NCBI GenBank assembly: GCA_028871795.1
Contig: JAGWMG010000004.1
Location: 62,001-126,000 of the forward strand
Direction of reading: 5' to 3'
DNA: 64,000 nt
Source of the DNA: Alphaproteobacteria bacterium
GTDB taxonomy: Bacteria > Pseudomonadota > Alphaproteobacteria > Micropepsales > Micropepsaceae
A program made the translations under genes and the position numbers. The notes below the pieces were generated by a model that saw only the letters and a program-made list of their open reading frames with translations, was not told the origin of the DNA and made no database searches. Below, piece by piece: positions 50,113-61,165 of the stretch. How positions within the stretch are numbered: the stretch's first letter is position 1; every line of letters starts with the position of its first letter.

Positions 50113-50576
50113 GTGCGGCTGGAGCCGATGCGCCGACAGGACGATTTCGGCGGGCGCTCCGGAGCGTCGAGAGTTCCCGACAAGTGCCGTCTCGAGCGAC
50201 GAAGCTGCAACCTCCACCTCTTGCTTGGAACAAGCGGAGCGCGATTCTCCCGGCTAATTCGCATGCAGACTGTGACATTGCTGTGATGAATTTGCCGCGG
50301 AATCGCCGGTCCTGCAGGACGCCGCGGGAATCGCGCGTGTGCGGGACACCGCGAGAATTGCCCGTTTGGGGCCGTTTGCGCACCCAACTTGCCTTTGGCG
50401 CGCACAACCCTTATATGGGGAACAGCGACGGCGTTCCGTCAGAAGAAGCGCACTGTTGTACTCCCGACTCGCATTGTGCGCGCCTGGCCGAAACAGCCGA
50501 ACTTCCCGCCTGATAGTCCCCGATCGCACCGTTGAAGCAGGAGCTTCGGCGGCAACACTACGCACTAGGAGCAATC

Positions 50577-51263: not shown

Positions 51264-51458
51264 CGACACCGACAACGCGGAGCCGGAGGCCCGATTTTGT
51301 CGGGCTCCGGCTCCTTGGACTGGGGTACAAACCCAAGCAATGCACTCGTGCTCTTTGCAACCATCCACGAGCCCGGGTGCCTCAACACGATGCCACAGAG
51401 CCGGCTAGACTGGTGTGACAAGTATGGGGCAAGAATGTCCCGCGCTACGCAATTTGTT

Positions 51459-52982
51459 CTAAGCCTTGGTTCTCAGCCGGACCGTCACTTCAAATCCGCC
51501 ATGCTCGCGATTGCGGCCCGCGACCGTGCCGCCGAGACCCTCGACGTTGCGTTTCACGATCCACAATCCGAGGCCCTGGTGGTTCTCCGCATTAGTCACG
51601 CCGTCCGCGCCCTTGTCGGGCGGCGGCCGAAAGGAAACGTAGCGGTCGAAAATGTGCGCGAGCCGGCTGGGCTCGACGCCGGGGCCGCGGTCCGCGATGC
51701 GAGCGCGGGCGAATTCGCCCTCGCGGTCGAGCGTGACCTCGACTGTGCCTCCCTTGGGGGTGAAGCTCGCGGCATTTTCCAGAAGATTCTCGATCACCGG
51801 CTCCATCAGGTCTTCGTTGGCATAAGCCGTGATGTGACCGGCGATGCGCGTGGACAGGCGCTTTCCCTGCGCTACGAGCGTGACGTCGTAGTCCGCGAGC
51901 ATTTGAACCATGAACCGCGACAGGTCGATCGGTCCCCGCTCGGGGTAGACCACATCGGCGGCGGCCTGTTCGGTGTCCCGCGTCGACGACACCAGCGAGT
52001 CCAGGCGCGCGATCGAACGTTCGATCAACTGCAGGCTGCGCTGCGCGGTGACGTCCGACGCAGCGACGACGCGTCTCAACGGCTCGATCGACTGCGCGAT
52101 GACGGCAAGCGGCGCCTTGAGGGCGTGCGTGTTCTCCTCGGCGGTCTGCTTGATGAAGTTCTGGGAAGAGACCAGCGCTTCGACCAGGGAATCGAAGTCT
52201 TCCGCCACGCGGGTCAGTTCCGGGATCGTGTTGAGTTCGCGAAACGAGATTGCGCCGGTGCCGCGAATGCGGATGCGGCGCGCGGCGCCGCGAAAGCGCG
52301 AAAGGTTCCGCCACAGGTGGATAAAAAGCCAGATGATCAGCGCCGTGCTCAGGATGTAGATTCCCGCCGTGGTCCGCATCGCCGGCGTCTGCCAGAAGGG
52401 CAGGTTGATCGGCGCCGCTGTCAGGTCGGCCGCGTTCTGCGAGGTGATGACGATCCAGCAATCGCCGCCGACGTGGAGCGGCGTCATGGAGGTGAGGACT
52501 TCCTGCTTGCCGGCGGGATTGACGAATTCGCCCGCGAGGTCGGTCGTTCCATTGCACGCCGGAGCCAAGCGCTCGAAGACGCCGGATTGAATCAGCTTGT
52601 GCCGTTCCTGTTTGAGGTAATCCGCCGATACGGGCGGCGAGGAGGCGATGTAGGAAAAATTGCCCTGGCCGGCGCCGGCAAGGCGCACCAGGATTTTCAC
52701 GTTGGTGTTGCCGATGGTCGCCGCATCGAGCGCTTCGCGCAAACTATCCGGCGATTCGTTCCTGAACTTCTCAAAATGGGGGCGAAGCATGGCGGCGATG
52801 ACGCGGCCGGTCTGGCCAGCGGCGTTGCGCAGCAGACCGAATTGCTGACGTTCGGCCCGCTCGAATTGCCAATAAAGGATGAGCGGGACCGTCAGCAATA
52901 TGAGTGCAATGAGGAGAAGTTTCAGCGAAAACGAATGGATAAGGCGCGAAAAAAGAGAGCCCGGCCTACTGCTCGTTTCCAT
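51459..52982 (-). CDS. Sensor histidine kinase
   Basis: NTHALKAPLAVIAQSIEPL (H box), NLLENAASFTPKGG, ADRGPGVEPSRLAHIFDRY, GLGLWIVKRNVEGLGG. Confidence 0.93.
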   Translation of the reverse strand: METSSRPGSLFSRLIHSFSLKLLLIALILLTVPLILYWQFERAERQQFGLLRNAAGQTGRVIAAMLRPHFEKFRNESPDSLREALDAATIGNTNVKILVRLAGAGQGNFSYIASSPPVSADYLKQERHKLIQSGVFERLAPACNGTTDLAGEFVNPAGKQEVLTSMTPLHVGGDCWIVITSQNAADLTAAPINLPFWQTPAMRTTAGIYILSTALIIWLFIHLWRNLSRFRGAARRIRIRGTGAISFRELNTIPELTRVAEDFDSLVEALVSSQNFIKQTAEENTHALKAPLAVIAQSIEPLRRVVAASDVTAQRSLQLIERSIARLDSLVSSTRDTEQAAADVVYPERGPIDLSRFMVQMLADYDVTLVAQGKRLSTRIAGHITAYANEDLMEPVIENLLENAASFTPKGGTVEVTLDREGEFARARIADRGPGVEPSRLAHIFDRYVSFRPPPDKGADGVTNAENHQGLGLWIVKRNVEGLGGTVAGRNREHGGFEVTVRLRTKA

Positions 52983-53724
52983 CCAGCCACCTGTAACCGA
53001 AGCCTGGGTAGTTTTTTATCTGCGCGAAATCCGGATCGACGTCGCGGAACTTCTGGCGGATGCGTTTGACGAAGGCGCGGACATTGGTGCGATAGCCGAT
53101 CTCGCCGTCGCCGGCCATGAAGCCTTCGCCGTGGACGATGTCGTAGATTTCCCGATAACTGACGTCCCGCCCGGACTGCTCCGTCAGATAGGCGACGATG
53201 TTGAACTCCGTCAGCGTCAAGCCGACGTTTGTCTGCTTCCAGAAGGCGCGCCGCGAATCGTAACGCAGCGTCAACTCCTTGAGCTGAATCAATTTGCTGT
53301 CGTCCGGGGACGAGCGCTGGAGGGCTCGCGCCTTGTTGCCGCTGAGGATCAGTTCGATTCGGCGCAGCAGGATCGCAAAGCTTCGCGATTTCTCCACGAA
53401 ATCTACCGCGCCGCCGAGCAGGCCCGCCTCCTCGTAGATCTGATCGTTCAGGACGGTCAGGAAAATGACGGGAATTTCCACTTTTTCGGTGCGCAGGCGC
53501 TGCAGCACCTCGATGCCCGTCATGCCCGGCATTTTCCAGTCGAGCAGGACGAGATCGGCGGTCGGTTCCGTGGCAAGATGGCGGATGGCGGCGGCGCCGT
53601 CGCCGAAGGCGGTGGTGGCGTAGCCCGCATCGACGAGGTTCGTGCTCACGGATTCGCGGAACAGCTCGTCGTCGTCCACGACCAGAACGTGGCCCCGGGC
53701 AGTCTGTACGCTAGCTTGGCCCAT
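52966..53724 (-). CDS. OmpR-type response regulator
   Basis: HVLVVDDDELFRESVSTNLVDAGY...LLDWKMPGMTGIEVLQRL; C-terminal winged helix LTEFNIVAYL...YPGFGYRWL. Confidence 0.93.
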   Translation of the reverse strand: MGQASVQTARGHVLVVDDDELFRESVSTNLVDAGYATTAFGDGAAAIRHLATEPTADLVLLDWKMPGMTGIEVLQRLRTEKVEIPVIFLTVLNDQIYEEAGLLGGAVDFVEKSRSFAILLRRIELILSGNKARALQRSSPDDSKLIQLKELTLRYDSRRAFWKQTNVGLTLTEFNIVAYLTEQSGRDVSYREIYDIVHGEGFMAGDGEIGYRTNVRAFVKRIRQKFRDVDPDFAQIKNYPGFGYRWLDGNEQ

Positions 53725-55256: not shown

Positions 55257-55605
55257 ACGGTGGTCCGCCAAACCGCTTCGGCCGGGCCGCACCGCAGCAT
55301 CCACGCCAAAAAGGTTGCCTACCGGCAACCTTTGAGACACAGCAGGAAAGCGTGCCCAGGTTTTGTCCAATCCGTGCCCAACCGGGCTATTCGCTCGCGA
55401 ACCAGCCAAACTCTGCGCGCGAGCCCGCAAGTCGTCCGGCGAAATGCGCAGTCATAAAAGACAACTGCACAGTACCTCTTTTTTGTCCCACGAAGGTCAC
55501 AACCGCGCAAGGGCGTTGTCGCTAGCCTACTGCGACACTTCGGCGCGCAGGAAATGCTGGTGGGCAGAAACGCCCGGAATACTGGGCCAAACGGAAGAGG
55601 ATACG

Positions 55606-56049
55606 ATGAAGAAACTCTTGATGGCGTCAACGGTCGCCCTACTGAGCGCGGCTTCTTTCAGCCCGGTCTACGCGCAGGCTCCCGCGTCGCCTGCTCAGCA
55701 GCAGACGACGACGCCGGACCAAGGCCAGATGGCGCCGGCCCAGAATCAAACTCAAACTTCGCCGACGGTTGGCACCGCGATGCAGGCCGACCTCACAGGT
55801 CAAACGATCTACAGCAGCAAAGGCCACAAGATCGGAACGGTGTCGTCGATGGCAACGGACGCGCAGGGCCAACAGGCCGCAGTCGTCAGCATTGAGAAGT
55901 TCCTGGGTATGGGCGGCAAGAACGTCCAGTTCCCGGTGAGCTCGCTGTCGCCGAAGGACGGTGGCGGTTACACGACGTCCCTGACGTCAAAGGAGATCAA
56001 GAAGCTGCCTGAGGCATCGGCGGCGAGCACGACGACCCCAAGCCCTTAG
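55606..56049 (+). CDS. Secreted PRC-barrel domain protein
   Basis: Signal peptide; DLTGQTIYSSKGHKIGTVSSMATDAQGQQAAVVSIEKFLGMGGKNVQFPVSSL. Confidence 0.82.
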   Translation: MKKLLMASTVALLSAASFSPVYAQAPASPAQQQTTTPDQGQMAPAQNQTQTSPTVGTAMQADLTGQTIYSSKGHKIGTVSSMATDAQGQQAAVVSIEKFLGMGGKNVQFPVSSLSPKDGGGYTTSLTSKEIKKLPEASAASTTTPSP

Positions 56050-56065
56050 GCGGTCGCCTTAACCG

Positions 56066-56182
56066 GATAGTGGAGCACAATGCCATTCACGACGGACTCT
56101 CCCCCCAAAGCCCCTCGGTCGGCGTTGTGACACTGTGCTCCACTTAACTTACTACTTTTTTCCGGCTCACGGCCGGAGACCA
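56066..56182. repeat. Structured ~117-bp element, unit 1
   Basis: AGTGGAGCACA (56069) pairs with TGTGCTCCACT (56134-56144); conserved core CGGACTCTCCCCC..AAGCCCCTCGGTCGGCGTTGTGAC; T-tract; CCGGC/GCCGG hairpin. Confidence 0.8.
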
Positions 56183-56296
56183 GATAGTGGAGCACAGCGG
56201 CATATACCCGGACTCTCCCCCTAAGCCCCTCGGTCGGCGTTGTGACGCCGTGCTCCACTAACTTATTGTTTTTTTCCCGGCTCGCGGCCGGAGATG
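56183..56296. repeat. Structured ~117-bp element, unit 2
   Basis: Tandem copy of unit 1, starting 117 bp later; AGTGGAGCAC pairs with GTGCTCCACT (56250-56259). Confidence 0.8.
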
Positions 56297-56307
56297 AGGA
56301 GGAAGGT

Positions 56308-56643
56308 ATGCGAAGAAACGACATGACTGGTCGGTCGCTGTTCGCAGCGGTCCGACCCCACGGAAATCTTGCAAGGGCGTTGGCTCTTGCTTCGGTGTTG
56401 GCAGTCGCCGCCTGCGGCACCAATCCGGGCGATCGTATGCTGTCCGGCGCTGGACTTGGCGCGGCTGGAGGAGCCATCATAGGCGCCGCCACGGGCAACT
56501 GGGCCACGGGAGCGGCAATCGGCGCAGTCAGCGGTGCCGCCATCGGCGGCCTGACGAGTCCGTGCGATCTCGATTTGGGCACGCCCTATTGGAGACGGCA
56601 CGGCGGACGCAAGGCCTACGAGAAGCGCTGCGGTCACGACTGA
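56308..56643 (+). CDS. Glycine-zipper lipoprotein
   Basis: Lipobox ALASVLAVAACG; GAGLGAAGGAIIGAATGNWATGAAIGAVSGAAIGGL. Confidence 0.82.
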   Translation: MRRNDMTGRSLFAAVRPHGNLARALALASVLAVAACGTNPGDRMLSGAGLGAAGGAIIGAATGNWATGAAIGAVSGAAIGGLTSPCDLDLGTPYWRRHGGRKAYEKRCGHD

Positions 56644-56889
56644 TCGAACAGCGCTTCCGCGACTAGGGCGGCATTGTGCGGCGCATCGCAGGACTGTGCC
56701 GCACAATGCACGCAGTTGAGTATGCAAATCCCCGATCGGCCGCCGCCGCGCCGTCCGCGCAACGATCCGAAAACCGCGAAGCGGACCGAAACCGGGCTCC
56801 CCTCGGACCGGAAAAATCGCACATCTTGCGCAACCTCACATTAACCAAGAAGAACGACTGTATCCCCCTGCGATCCGAGGGGGGTCCAA

Positions 56890-58506
56890 GTGAGCGTTCA
56901 ACGTCTGCCTCGCGCCGTGCCCGACGCCGCCGGTCCCAAGGCCCTGGAAATGCTGTTCAGGCCGTTGCCTTTTCTCCTGATCGACGGAGGCGACCCCCGC
57001 TTGGCACTCGATCGGGCCATCGGGGCGAACGTCTATGGCTGCCGGCCGCATCCGACACCGGAAACAATGGCATTTTCTTCATCGACGGCGACGTCGATCT
57101 CGGAGCGTGCATACCGGCGTGCTGAAAGCGCCCGCAACGAGCTGTTGCGAGAGAGCATCGAACTGGGCGTGCTCGAAGCCTTCGAACGGCGGATCGAACG
57201 TCTGCGCCGTTCGCTGCGGGCGTGTCTCGAACTGGACGACGCGGAAATCGTCTTTTCACCCTCGGGCACGGACACGCAATTGCACGCGCTTTTCTTCGCG
57301 CGCCAGCTTCTGGACGGACCGGTGACGAGCATCGTCATCGCCGGCGACCAGACCGGAAGCGGCACGGCTTACACGAGCCGCGGACAGAATTTCTCGAATC
57401 GGACCGCGCGGGGAAAATCCGTCGAAAAGGGAGCGCCCATCGAAGGGCTGGCGGACGGCGTCGAAAGCCTTGGCATTTCCCTGTTCGCGCCGGACGGCGC
57501 CGTCCGTTCGACAAGCGAAATGGATGCCGCGGTGATCGAAGCGGTCGCCGGCCAAATACACCTCGGGCGCAAGGTCGTCGTGCAGACGATGGACTCTTCG
57601 AAGCTCGGCTGGCGCGCGCCCTCGGATGGCTGCCTGCGTTATCTGAGCAGCCGCTGGCCGCACGCGATACAGATCGTCGTCGATGCTTGCCAGCTGCGGA
57701 TCGGAAGAGGGCGTATCCGGAGCTATCTGGATCGCGGCTATATGGTGCTGATTACGGGCTCCAAGTTCTTCACCGGTCCGGCATTCAGCGGAGCGGCGCT
57801 GTTTTCGGCGGCGCTTGCGGGCTGCGTTGCCGCTCGGATGCCCAACGGCATTGCGGATTACGCCACGCGCTTCGACCTGCCGGCCTGCTGGCCCGCCCTC
57901 CGCGAGGCTTTGCCCGCGATCCCCAATTTCGGACAATGGCTGCGCTGGGAAGCGGCGTTAGAGGAGATGCGCGCCTATTACGCGCTGCCTTCACCCTATC
58001 GCCGATCGGCGCTCAGGCGCCTGGCCGAAGCGGTTCCGGCGATGATCGCCTCGTCGCGGCATTTGGGGTCGATGTCCGGGCGGGAAAGCCTGGCGGATTT
58101 CTTGGACGACGAGGAAATGTCCAGCCGGACGATCTTCCCGTTCTTCGTAAGGTGCGGCGGCCGCAATCTCGATCTCGACGAAATGACGAGAATCTATCGA
58201 GCCCTCAATCGCGATCTTTCAGCCGCCTTGCCGAAAGAGGCGACGGACTCCGAACGCGCCTTAGCGTCCGTTTCCTGCCATATCGGCCAACCGGTCAAGC
58301 TCCCCGTCGGCACCATCCTGCGCATCGGCATCGGCGCGCGGCACTTGTCCGACGCCTGGTCGGCGGATGCGCGGACGGCGGAGGACAACATCGACGCGAT
58401 CGTCGGCGGCATCCGCACCGTCGTACGCAAGATCGACCTGATCGTGCGCACGGGTATCCACGAACCGGCCGACACGACGGGCAAACCGCTGGCGAGGGCC
58501 GTATGA
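56890..58506 (+). CDS. Atypical PLP-dependent fold-type-I enzyme
   Basis: GTG start with upstream GAGGGGGG; FSPSGTDTQLHALFFARQL, VVDACQLRIGRGRIRSYLDRGYMVLITGSKFFTGPAFSGAALF (candidate Asp and PLP-Lys). Confidence 0.72.
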   Translation: MSVQRLPRAVPDAAGPKALEMLFRPLPFLLIDGGDPRLALDRAIGANVYGCRPHPTPETMAFSSSTATSISERAYRRAESARNELLRESIELGVLEAFERRIERLRRSLRACLELDDAEIVFSPSGTDTQLHALFFARQLLDGPVTSIVIAGDQTGSGTAYTSRGQNFSNRTARGKSVEKGAPIEGLADGVESLGISLFAPDGAVRSTSEMDAAVIEAVAGQIHLGRKVVVQTMDSSKLGWRAPSDGCLRYLSSRWPHAIQIVVDACQLRIGRGRIRSYLDRGYMVLITGSKFFTGPAFSGAALFSAALAGCVAARMPNGIADYATRFDLPACWPALREALPAIPNFGQWLRWEAALEEMRAYYALPSPYRRSALRRLAEAVPAMIASSRHLGSMSGRESLADFLDDEEMSSRTIFPFFVRCGGRNLDLDEMTRIYRALNRDLSAALPKEATDSERALASVSCHIGQPVKLPVGTILRIGIGARHLSDAWSADARTAEDNIDAIVGGIRTVVRKIDLIVRTGIHEPADTTGKPLARAV

Positions 58507-59714
58507 CTATTTGCTGCGACCGCATCGGCGTGGCGAAGCTGACGAAAATGGCCTTCGATGGCGTCAACTTGCGTCCTCTGTGGCACGAACTGATGGAAAA
58601 GGTGACCGACGATGCCGAAGGCGCCGGCATCGGCATGGACCTGTCGGTCATCGCGCAATTGCTGGGAGACCAGGCGACCGGCCTTGCCATCCAAAAGGAA
58701 GTCCTCGGCTATCAGCGACTGTTCCGGTCGCCTTGCGCGACGCCGACGCCGCGATTGCGGGTTCTGGCGCTGGCGGCGGAAATGGACATCGGCGGCAACA
58801 CGCCCATCGAGTTCCTGCTGGAAGGCTCTGATGTCGCGTTGACCACGCTTTATGTCGTTCCCGGCCAGACGTGGCCGAATCCGCTTCCGCAGCACGACGT
58901 GGCTATCGTCGTCGTGCCGGACGACGCCCGGACGCAGGAAACGCTCACCGAAATAGAGTGTCACACCGGCAACTGGCCGTGCAAAATCCTCAATCCACCC
59001 ATGCGGATTCGCCAGCAGGACCGCGACCGCCTCCATCGCCTTTTGAATGCGGTCCCCGGCCTGGGGATTCCCGCGACGGTCCGCATACCCCGAGCCGGTC
59101 TGGCGGAATTGAGCGAAGAGACACTTCCGCGATGGCTGGAGGTAGGACGGTTTCCGTTGATCGCGCGGCCGATCTGTTCGCACGCCGGCCGCGGTCTCGC
59201 CAAACTGGAAACGCCGTCCGACATCGTGGGTTACCTTGCGGAACGCGGCGAAACCGAATTCTTTATTTCTCGCTTCGTCGATTATTTGAGCAAGGACGGG
59301 ATGTTCCGGAAATATCGGCTGGTCTGCGTCGACGGCCGGCCTTACGCCTGCCACATGGCGATTTCCGAGCAGTGGAAAATCTGGTACCTGAACGCCGATA
59401 TGGCGCTCAGCCCGGACAAGCGTGCCGAGGAAGCGCATTTCATGGCGACCTTCGACGACGAATTCGCGGTGCGCCATGCGGCTGCCCTCGCCGAGATGAC
59501 CCGGCGTATCGGCTTGGACTACTTCATGGTCGATTGCGCCGAGACCAAGACGGGAGAGCTTCTGGTCTTCGAGGCGGACAATACGGCCATTGTCCACAAT
59601 ATGGACCCACCGGACATCTATCCCTACAAGGCCCCGCAGATGCAGAAGGTTTTCGACGCCTTCGTCGCCATGCTGTATAAGCGCGCCGGAAATCCTCGAG
59701 CCTGCGCTGCGTGA
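58503..59714 (+). CDS. ATP-grasp ligase (RimK/glutathione-synthetase-like)
   Basis: FPLIARPICSHAGRGLAKL, FFISRFVDYLSKDGMFRKYRLVCVDGRPYACHMAISEQWKIWYLNADM, DYFMVDCAETKTGELLVFEADNTAIVHNMD; ATGA overlap. Confidence 0.82.
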   Translation: MTICCDRIGVAKLTKMAFDGVNLRPLWHELMEKVTDDAEGAGIGMDLSVIAQLLGDQATGLAIQKEVLGYQRLFRSPCATPTPRLRVLALAAEMDIGGNTPIEFLLEGSDVALTTLYVVPGQTWPNPLPQHDVAIVVVPDDARTQETLTEIECHTGNWPCKILNPPMRIRQQDRDRLHRLLNAVPGLGIPATVRIPRAGLAELSEETLPRWLEVGRFPLIARPICSHAGRGLAKLETPSDIVGYLAERGETEFFISRFVDYLSKDGMFRKYRLVCVDGRPYACHMAISEQWKIWYLNADMALSPDKRAEEAHFMATFDDEFAVRHAAALAEMTRRIGLDYFMVDCAETKTGELLVFEADNTAIVHNMDPPDIYPYKAPQMQKVFDAFVAMLYKRAGNPRACAA

Positions 59715-61165
59715 ACGCCAAGAAACGCGAACTGCCCGGCATAACCCTCGATCCCGAAGACTGGTCCGAACTGCGGGCGCTGGGCCATCTTATGCTCGAC
59801 GACATGATCGATTACATTGAGCACGTCCGCGAGCGTCCCGTCTGGCGGCCGATTCCACAAGAGGCGCGCGACCGGTTCCGCGCTGAGCTGCCGCGCGAGG
59901 CGACCGAGCTTGGCGCGGCGTACGACGAATTTTCCCGGTTTGTGGCCCCCTACACGAGCGGGAATATCCATCCCGGATTCATGGGCTGGGTTCACGGCGG
60001 CGGCACGGCGGTGGGGATGCTTGCGGAAATGCTGGCGGCGGGACTTGACGCCAATCTGGGCGGTCGCGACCAGATGCCCATCGAGGTCGAGCGCCAGATC
60101 GTCGAATGGGCCCGTTCGATGTTCGGCTTTCCCGCGGGAGCGAGCGGCGTCTTCGTCACCGGTACGTCCGCCGCGAATCTGCTCGCCGTCTTGATCGCAC
60201 GCACGGGCGCGTTGGGCCGCGAGGTCCGACAAACCGGCGTTTCGGCCAAGGGTGGCGTGCTACGCGCCTACACCTCCACGGGGGCGCATGTCTGCATCAG
60301 TCAGGCCTTCGAAATTTCCGGGCTGGGCTCCGATGTCTTGCGGCGGGTTCCGGCGGATGCGTCATATCGCATGGACCTGCCGGCGTTGCGCCGGGCGATC
60401 GCCGAGGATCGCGCCGCCGGATTGTCGCCGTTCCTCGTAGTCGGCACCGCGGGCACGGTCGATACGGGCGCCATCGACGATCTCGGCGCCTTGGCCGATC
60501 TTTGCGCCAAGGAACAGCTGCATTTTCACATCGACGGCGCCTTCGGCGCCTTGGCGGTGTGGTCTCCCGAACTCGCACCGCTGGTCAAAGGCATCGAGCG
60601 CGCGGATTCCATCGCCTTCGATTTCCACAAATGGGCGCAGGTTCCGTACGATGCCGGGTTCCTGCTGGCGCGCAACGGCGAACTGCACCGCGCGACCTTC
60701 GCTTCGTCCGCCGCCTATCTGCGCCGGGAAGCGCGCGGCCTGGCGGGAGGTTCGCCGTGGCCGAGCGAATTCGGTCTCGATTTGTCGCGCGGATTCCGCG
60801 CCTTGAAGACCTGGTTCACATTGAAGACCTTCGGCACCGACCGCATGGGCGCCGTGATCGCCCGCACCTGCTCTCTCGCGAAGTACCTGGAGCGCCGCGT
60901 CCTGGCCGAGCCGCAGCTCGAATTGCTGGCGCCGGTCGCACTGAACATCGTCTGCTTCCGCCATCGCGGGAACGATGCGCTCAATGCGCAGATTGTCGTC
61001 GATCTGCACGAATCCGGAATCGCGGCTCCGTCCACGACTTCGCTCGGCGGCCGTCTCGCCATCCGCGCCGCGTTCGTCAACCACCGCACGCAGACCTGCG
61101 ACGTCGATGCTTTGGTCGATGCCGTCATCCGGTTTGGGAAGGAACGGTCGGCGCGGGATCAGTGA
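59711..61165 (+). CDS. Group II PLP-dependent decarboxylase (aromatic-L-amino-acid/glutamate decarboxylase family)
   Basis: HPGFMGWVHGGGTAVGMLAEML...GVFVTGTSAANLLAVLIAR...HIDGAFGALAV...DSIAFDFHKWAQVPYDAGFLL; GTGA overlap. Confidence 0.93.
   Translation: MNAKKRELPGITLDPEDWSELRALGHLMLDDMIDYIEHVRERPVWRPIPQEARDRFRAELPREATELGAAYDEFSRFVAPYTSGNIHPGFMGWVHGGGTAVGMLAEMLAAGLDANLGGRDQMPIEVERQIVEWARSMFGFPAGASGVFVTGTSAANLLAVLIARTGALGREVRQTGVSAKGGVLRAYTSTGAHVCISQAFEISGLGSDVLRRVPADASYRMDLPALRRAIAEDRAAGLSPFLVVGTAGTVDTGAIDDLGALADLCAKEQLHFHIDGAFGALAVWSPELAPLVKGIERADSIAFDFHKWAQVPYDAGFLLARNGELHRATFASSAAYLRREARGLAGGSPWPSEFGLDLSRGFRALKTWFTLKTFGTDRMGAVIARTCSLAKYLERRVLAEPQLELLAPVALNIVCFRHRGNDALNAQIVVDLHESGIAAPSTTSLGGRLAIRAAFVNHRTQTCDVDALVDAVIRFGKERSARDQ

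Follow-up and report, generated by a model that had tools for sequence, protein, structure and literature searches.

Among the small RNAs of the alphaproteobacteria, the cuckoo/CcsR/alpha-r14 group has an anti-Shine-Dalgarno loop motif that reads CCUCCUCCC (PMC10746234), and at the CIN1 locus a DUF1127 protein gene adjoins the RNAs (PMC10253847). For alpha-r14/NfeR1 the described pattern is one of rewritten stems around a fixed C-rich loop (PMC10746234). ChvR of Caulobacter, which is regulated by ChvI-ChvG, is a precedent for an envelope-stress sRNA (PMC6237742). Hairpins between co-oriented genes, like that of puf, are a different kind of element; PMC10253847, citing Klug 1987, describes such intercistronic hairpins in alphaproteobacteria as determinants of segment stability. 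Inverted repeats between genes are also found as REP and MITE palindromes.

The element described here lies in a window of 64,000 nucleotides (the whole stretch of DNA that was analysed), in the spacer that separates a PRC-barrel gene from the gene of a glycine-zipper lipoprotein. The initial annotation placed it correctly between two envelope genes, and Pfam matches now name them. The features of the locus are as follows.

55483-55501, + strand: TTGTCCCA-N6-TCACA box 5' of the PRC-barrel gene; TTGTCC...TCACA is conserved in six species, with an exact match in the window
55606-56049, + strand: gene for a PRC-barrel domain protein of 147 aa with a signal peptide-like N terminus; upstream neighbour (Pfam PF05239, E 5.7e-05)
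56068-56146, + strand: unit 1 hairpin (79 nt) with outer helix, inner helix and C-rich apical loop (covariance model match 4.4e-18)
56097-56121, + strand: conserved C-rich loop core of unit 1, CTCTCCCCCCAAAGCCCCTCGGTCG
56162-56176, + strand: small hairpin of unit 1, CCGGCTCACGGCCGG, 3' of a T-rich tract; this genome only; not an intrinsic terminator
56185-56261, + strand: unit 2 hairpin (77 nt), the tandem copy (covariance model match 6.0e-20)
56213-56236, + strand: conserved C-rich loop core of unit 2, CTCTCCCCCTAAGCCCCTCGGTCG
56277-56291, + strand: small hairpin of unit 2, CCGGCTCGCGGCCGG
56308-56643, + strand: glycine-zipper (YMGG/OmpA-type) lipoprotein gene, downstream neighbour (Pfam PF13436, E 2.6e-08; PF13441, E 1.2e-07)

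Like the cuckoo/CcsR/alpha-r14 (NfeR1) RNAs, which can be tandem, the element is alphaproteobacterial and combines variable stems with a conserved C-rich loop. It differs from them in the loop, which in the homologues is CUCUCCCCC(C)..AGCCCC.UCGG and lacks the CCUCCUCCC motif, in having one hairpin per unit instead of two or three and no terminator, and in its neighbours, which encode PF05239 and glycine-zipper proteins instead of DUF1127. Because the CCUCCUCCC motif and the DUF1127 neighbour are absent we do not file the element under cuckoo/alpha-r14, and the cuckoo/CcsR likeness seen by the initial annotation does not amount to membership. By analogy, the element perhaps works like these sRNAs or like the puf intercistronic hairpin; with the latter it shares the position between co-oriented genes, but its conserved loop sequence suggests a sequence-specific partner. 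The likeness to ChvR is one of envelope-stress setting, with an OmpR-type response regulator and a histidine kinase (51459-53724) 2-4 kb from the element; ChvR lies at another locus and has several stem-loops and one known target. REP and MITE palindromes differ from the element, which has no dispersed copies, sits at a fixed syntenic site and has a conserved interior between changing arms.

The two units follow each other with a period of 117 bp, as the initial annotation had estimated, and are 88% identical by mean column identity (85% by BLAST). Each is a hairpin of about 78 nt, i.e. a long outer helix that ends in an apical loop of about 20 nt. The insert between the arms AGTGGAGCAC/GTGCTCCACT is 56 nt long in unit 1 and 54 nt long in unit 2; the initial annotation gave about 54 nt for each. 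The perfect arms measure 11-12 bp, the longest perfect inverted repeat at the units being 12 bp, and a perfect inverted repeat of at least 11 bp arose in 0 of 1000 dinucleotide-shuffled versions of the intergenic region. On both strands unit 1 folded better than every one of 200 shuffled sequences (z about -4); the fold of unit 2 was weaker (z -2.1 and -2.9). The reverse strand folds too, for unit 1 even better than the + strand. In the + strand fold the apical loop, CTCTCCCCC..AGCCCC.TCG, is mostly unpaired. The stem changes noted previously (ATG opposite CAC in unit 1, GCG opposite CGC in unit 2) are present: a T-A pair is replaced by C-G and, in addition, an A-C mismatch by G-C. The C-rich core, the T-rich tract and the CCGGC..GCCGG hairpin are likewise there; however, the tract and the small hairpin are missing in the relatives and do not form an intrinsic terminator (which would need a short-loop, GC-rich stem with a T run directly behind it), as the T tract begins about 10 nt past the stem. 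Neither a sigma-70 promoter nor an intrinsic terminator was found in 55400-56400, and none brackets either unit. A 16-residue ORF noticed by eye within unit 1 was rejected, as it is retained neither in unit 2 nor in the relatives.

Since a comparison of two copies is weak evidence, the case for a structured element rests on five other species of the same genus, each with one hairpin at the same site. Six full hairpins were aligned with a covariance model built from three of them, because MAFFT misregisters the arms when applied to all six. In this alignment, which leans towards the structure and holds only six to seven sequences, 14 of the 21 pairs are altered on both sides across six sequences (shuffle mean 6.3; 14 was reached in 0 of 500 shuffles). 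In the outer helix, which is 96.6% paired, this is true for 10 of 15 pairs. When the partner is shifted by 1-3 columns, pairing drops from 93% to 28-60%. The outer helix is also formed by every homologue folded singly. The stems range from AGTGGAGCAC to TTGGTGGGTGGC while the loop CTCTCCCCC..AGCCCC.TCGGTCGGCG stays fixed, CTCTCCCCC and TCGGTCGGCG being retained in nearly all intact homologues. In the protein tree G019 groups with this genome and G043 (support 0.94), yet its stem belongs to the TTGGTGGG class; stems have therefore been replaced by paired changes. The proposal of a structured non-coding element with compensatory changes is supported by these same-site homologues. G-U and A-C cells, used as a strand indicator, are about equally frequent in the outer helix, and since the reverse strand also folds, the covariation is compatible with either strand and with a role at the DNA level.

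The genus was sampled with 69 genomes. G043, G048, G032 and G038 have one hairpin between the same gene pair, and gene pair and orientation are constant in all intact cases. G019 is a single case: of its one hairpin, 3' of the PRC-barrel gene, the stem is intact but the loop core is decayed, and only a remnant of the lipoprotein gene is left. Both genes are present in G053 without the hairpin, which is therefore dispensable. Hairpin length is 77-81 nt across the homologues, and the distance from the nearest hairpin to the lipoprotein ATG is 46-79 nt as compared to 11-135 nt between the PRC stop and the hairpin. A BLAST search of this genome with one unit returned only the tandem pair, and covariance-model searches gave no further convincing copies in the genus genomes. 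In a class-wide pattern scan of 387 genomes this genome alone matched (0 of the 386 others). A broader scan of genome contigs gave three matches in MAGs of uncultured Alphaproteobacteria (REEB43, nzgw541, REEB230), which are probably not additional to G043, G032 and G048; four scattered matches in unrelated phyla were taken as chance. The plasmid scan with the pattern gave no match. Rfam 15 has no family for the element: only tRNAs pass the gathering threshold, and the relaxed threshold adds chance-level matches. The element is a genus-restricted candidate for a structured RNA motif and not a REP or MITE, and judging from sequence comparison the hairpin is probably a real, so far undescribed regulatory RNA element.

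A further comparison concerns the promoters of the lipoprotein genes. An exact EcfG promoter, GGAAC-N15..18-CGTT, precedes the glycine-zipper lipoprotein gene in 19 of 30 genus genomes, where shuffling predicts about 0.07 genomes, and these genes are probably general-stress genes. The promoter is found in 19 of 25 members without the hairpin and in 0 of 5 with it (Fisher p about 0.003, for species that are not independent). G032, G038 and G053 have a degraded GGCAC-N16-CGTT; the AAC of the GGAAC box is nearly invariant among characterised EcfG promoters (PMC7083833). G053 has neither the hairpin nor an exact EcfG promoter, so the exact promoter can be missing where there is no hairpin as well.

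We tentatively read the element as a structured intercistronic RNA that is transcribed with both genes and adjusts in cis how strongly the lipoprotein gene is expressed, an explanation whose chances we put somewhat below even. Transcription would start at the PRC promoter and run through the element, here in its duplicated form, and the long covarying helix would present the fixed C-rich loop of about 20 nt to a partner in trans, another RNA or an RNA-binding protein. Such a partner is suggested by the fixed loop sequence on a freely varying stem. Cis action on the lipoprotein gene is weakly favoured by the narrow distance of the nearest hairpin to that gene, by the lack of an exact EcfG promoter where the hairpin is present, and by the decay of the loop where the lipoprotein gene is broken. 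Against it counts that the loop pairs with the start or ribosome site of the lipoprotein gene no better than with a background of Shine-Dalgarno-like sites. The cis intercistronic element is only slightly preferred over the sibling sRNAs of the initial annotation, whose C-rich loops would act in trans as anti-Shine-Dalgarno seeds on other mRNAs, in the manner of cuckoo/alpha-r14 RNAs; as a variant, they might be released by processing of the PRC mRNA in its 3' UTR. This is possible but rather unlikely: the tandem copies, the unpaired + strand loop, the alpha-r14-like pattern of change and the ChvR precedent speak for it, but neither unit has its own promoter or intrinsic terminator, the other species have a single copy, and the loop shows neither the cuckoo motif nor an Rfam match.

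A hairpin that simply protects the 3' end of the PRC mRNA, or aids termination, with Rho loading at the C-rich loop as one variant, and so gives the two genes unequal output as in puf, is improbable. A strong stem does lie 3' of the PRC-barrel gene in all cases, such intercistronic hairpins have the precedent mentioned above, and the loop is C-rich and G-poor; but a hairpin that only stabilises the mRNA can do without loop conservation, the stem has no T tail, and its distance from the PRC stop varies. A mobile hairpin of REP/MITE type or a protein-binding palindrome could be suspected from the perfect terminal inverted repeats, the tandem copy and the absence in G053. We consider it very improbable, as there are two copies here and one per relative, always at one site and not on plasmids, and the dispersed copies that would mark a simple repeat were looked for and not seen. 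Moreover, the terminal repeats differ among species and the interior is conserved, which is the reverse of a MITE.

We regard the hairpin element as a real and new candidate for a structured RNA, with cis action as its proposed mechanism. The motif lies outside Rfam, is supported by covariation and comes from an uncultured alphaproteobacterial genus, and it shows clearly how a loop can be held constant while its stem evolves freely. It is a more speculative and on balance doubtful suggestion that it represents a new riboregulator family, in which a fixed C-rich loop on a freely evolving helix, duplicated here, couples the PRC-barrel gene to a stress lipoprotein and post-transcriptional control has replaced an ancestral EcfG promoter. 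If the promoter swap is real, control of a stress lipoprotein has passed within one genus from the transcriptional to the post-transcriptional level.

The surroundings of the element show some other features. About 105 bp separate the TTGTCCCA-N6-TCACA box from the PRC-barrel gene downstream of it. Five related genomes have a like box there, and it probably serves the transcription unit as a promoter or as the site of a regulator. A copy with one mismatch at 51414-51432 (- strand) adjoins the histidine kinase gene and may serve as a site for the two-component system encoded nearby. In the PRC-barrel gene leaders of this genome (55560-55606), G043 and G048 a short GCCC..GGGC hairpin stands directly 5' of the Shine-Dalgarno site. 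Pairing of the C-rich loop to the PRC start site was better in three species, not here, and was rejected as the matching GGGC is explained by this leader hairpin. Near the start of a gene that resembles trehalose-phosphate synthase by eye, a hairpin GGCGCGCACAA...TTGTGCGCGCC with a loop of about 66 nt (50397-50484) is unrelated in its loop to the C-rich-loop element. Just 3' of the lipoprotein gene a perfect 12-bp hairpin without T tail, GCATTGTGCGGC/GCCGCACAATGC (56671-56709), is possibly the 3' end of the operon. The stretch further 3' (56890-61165) may be a small biosynthetic cluster: it holds a 538-aa ORF without Pfam or NCBIfam match, a 403-aa ORF that matches no NCBIfam family but by eye resembles ATP-grasp proteins, and the gene of a 484-aa protein similar to PLP decarboxylases.
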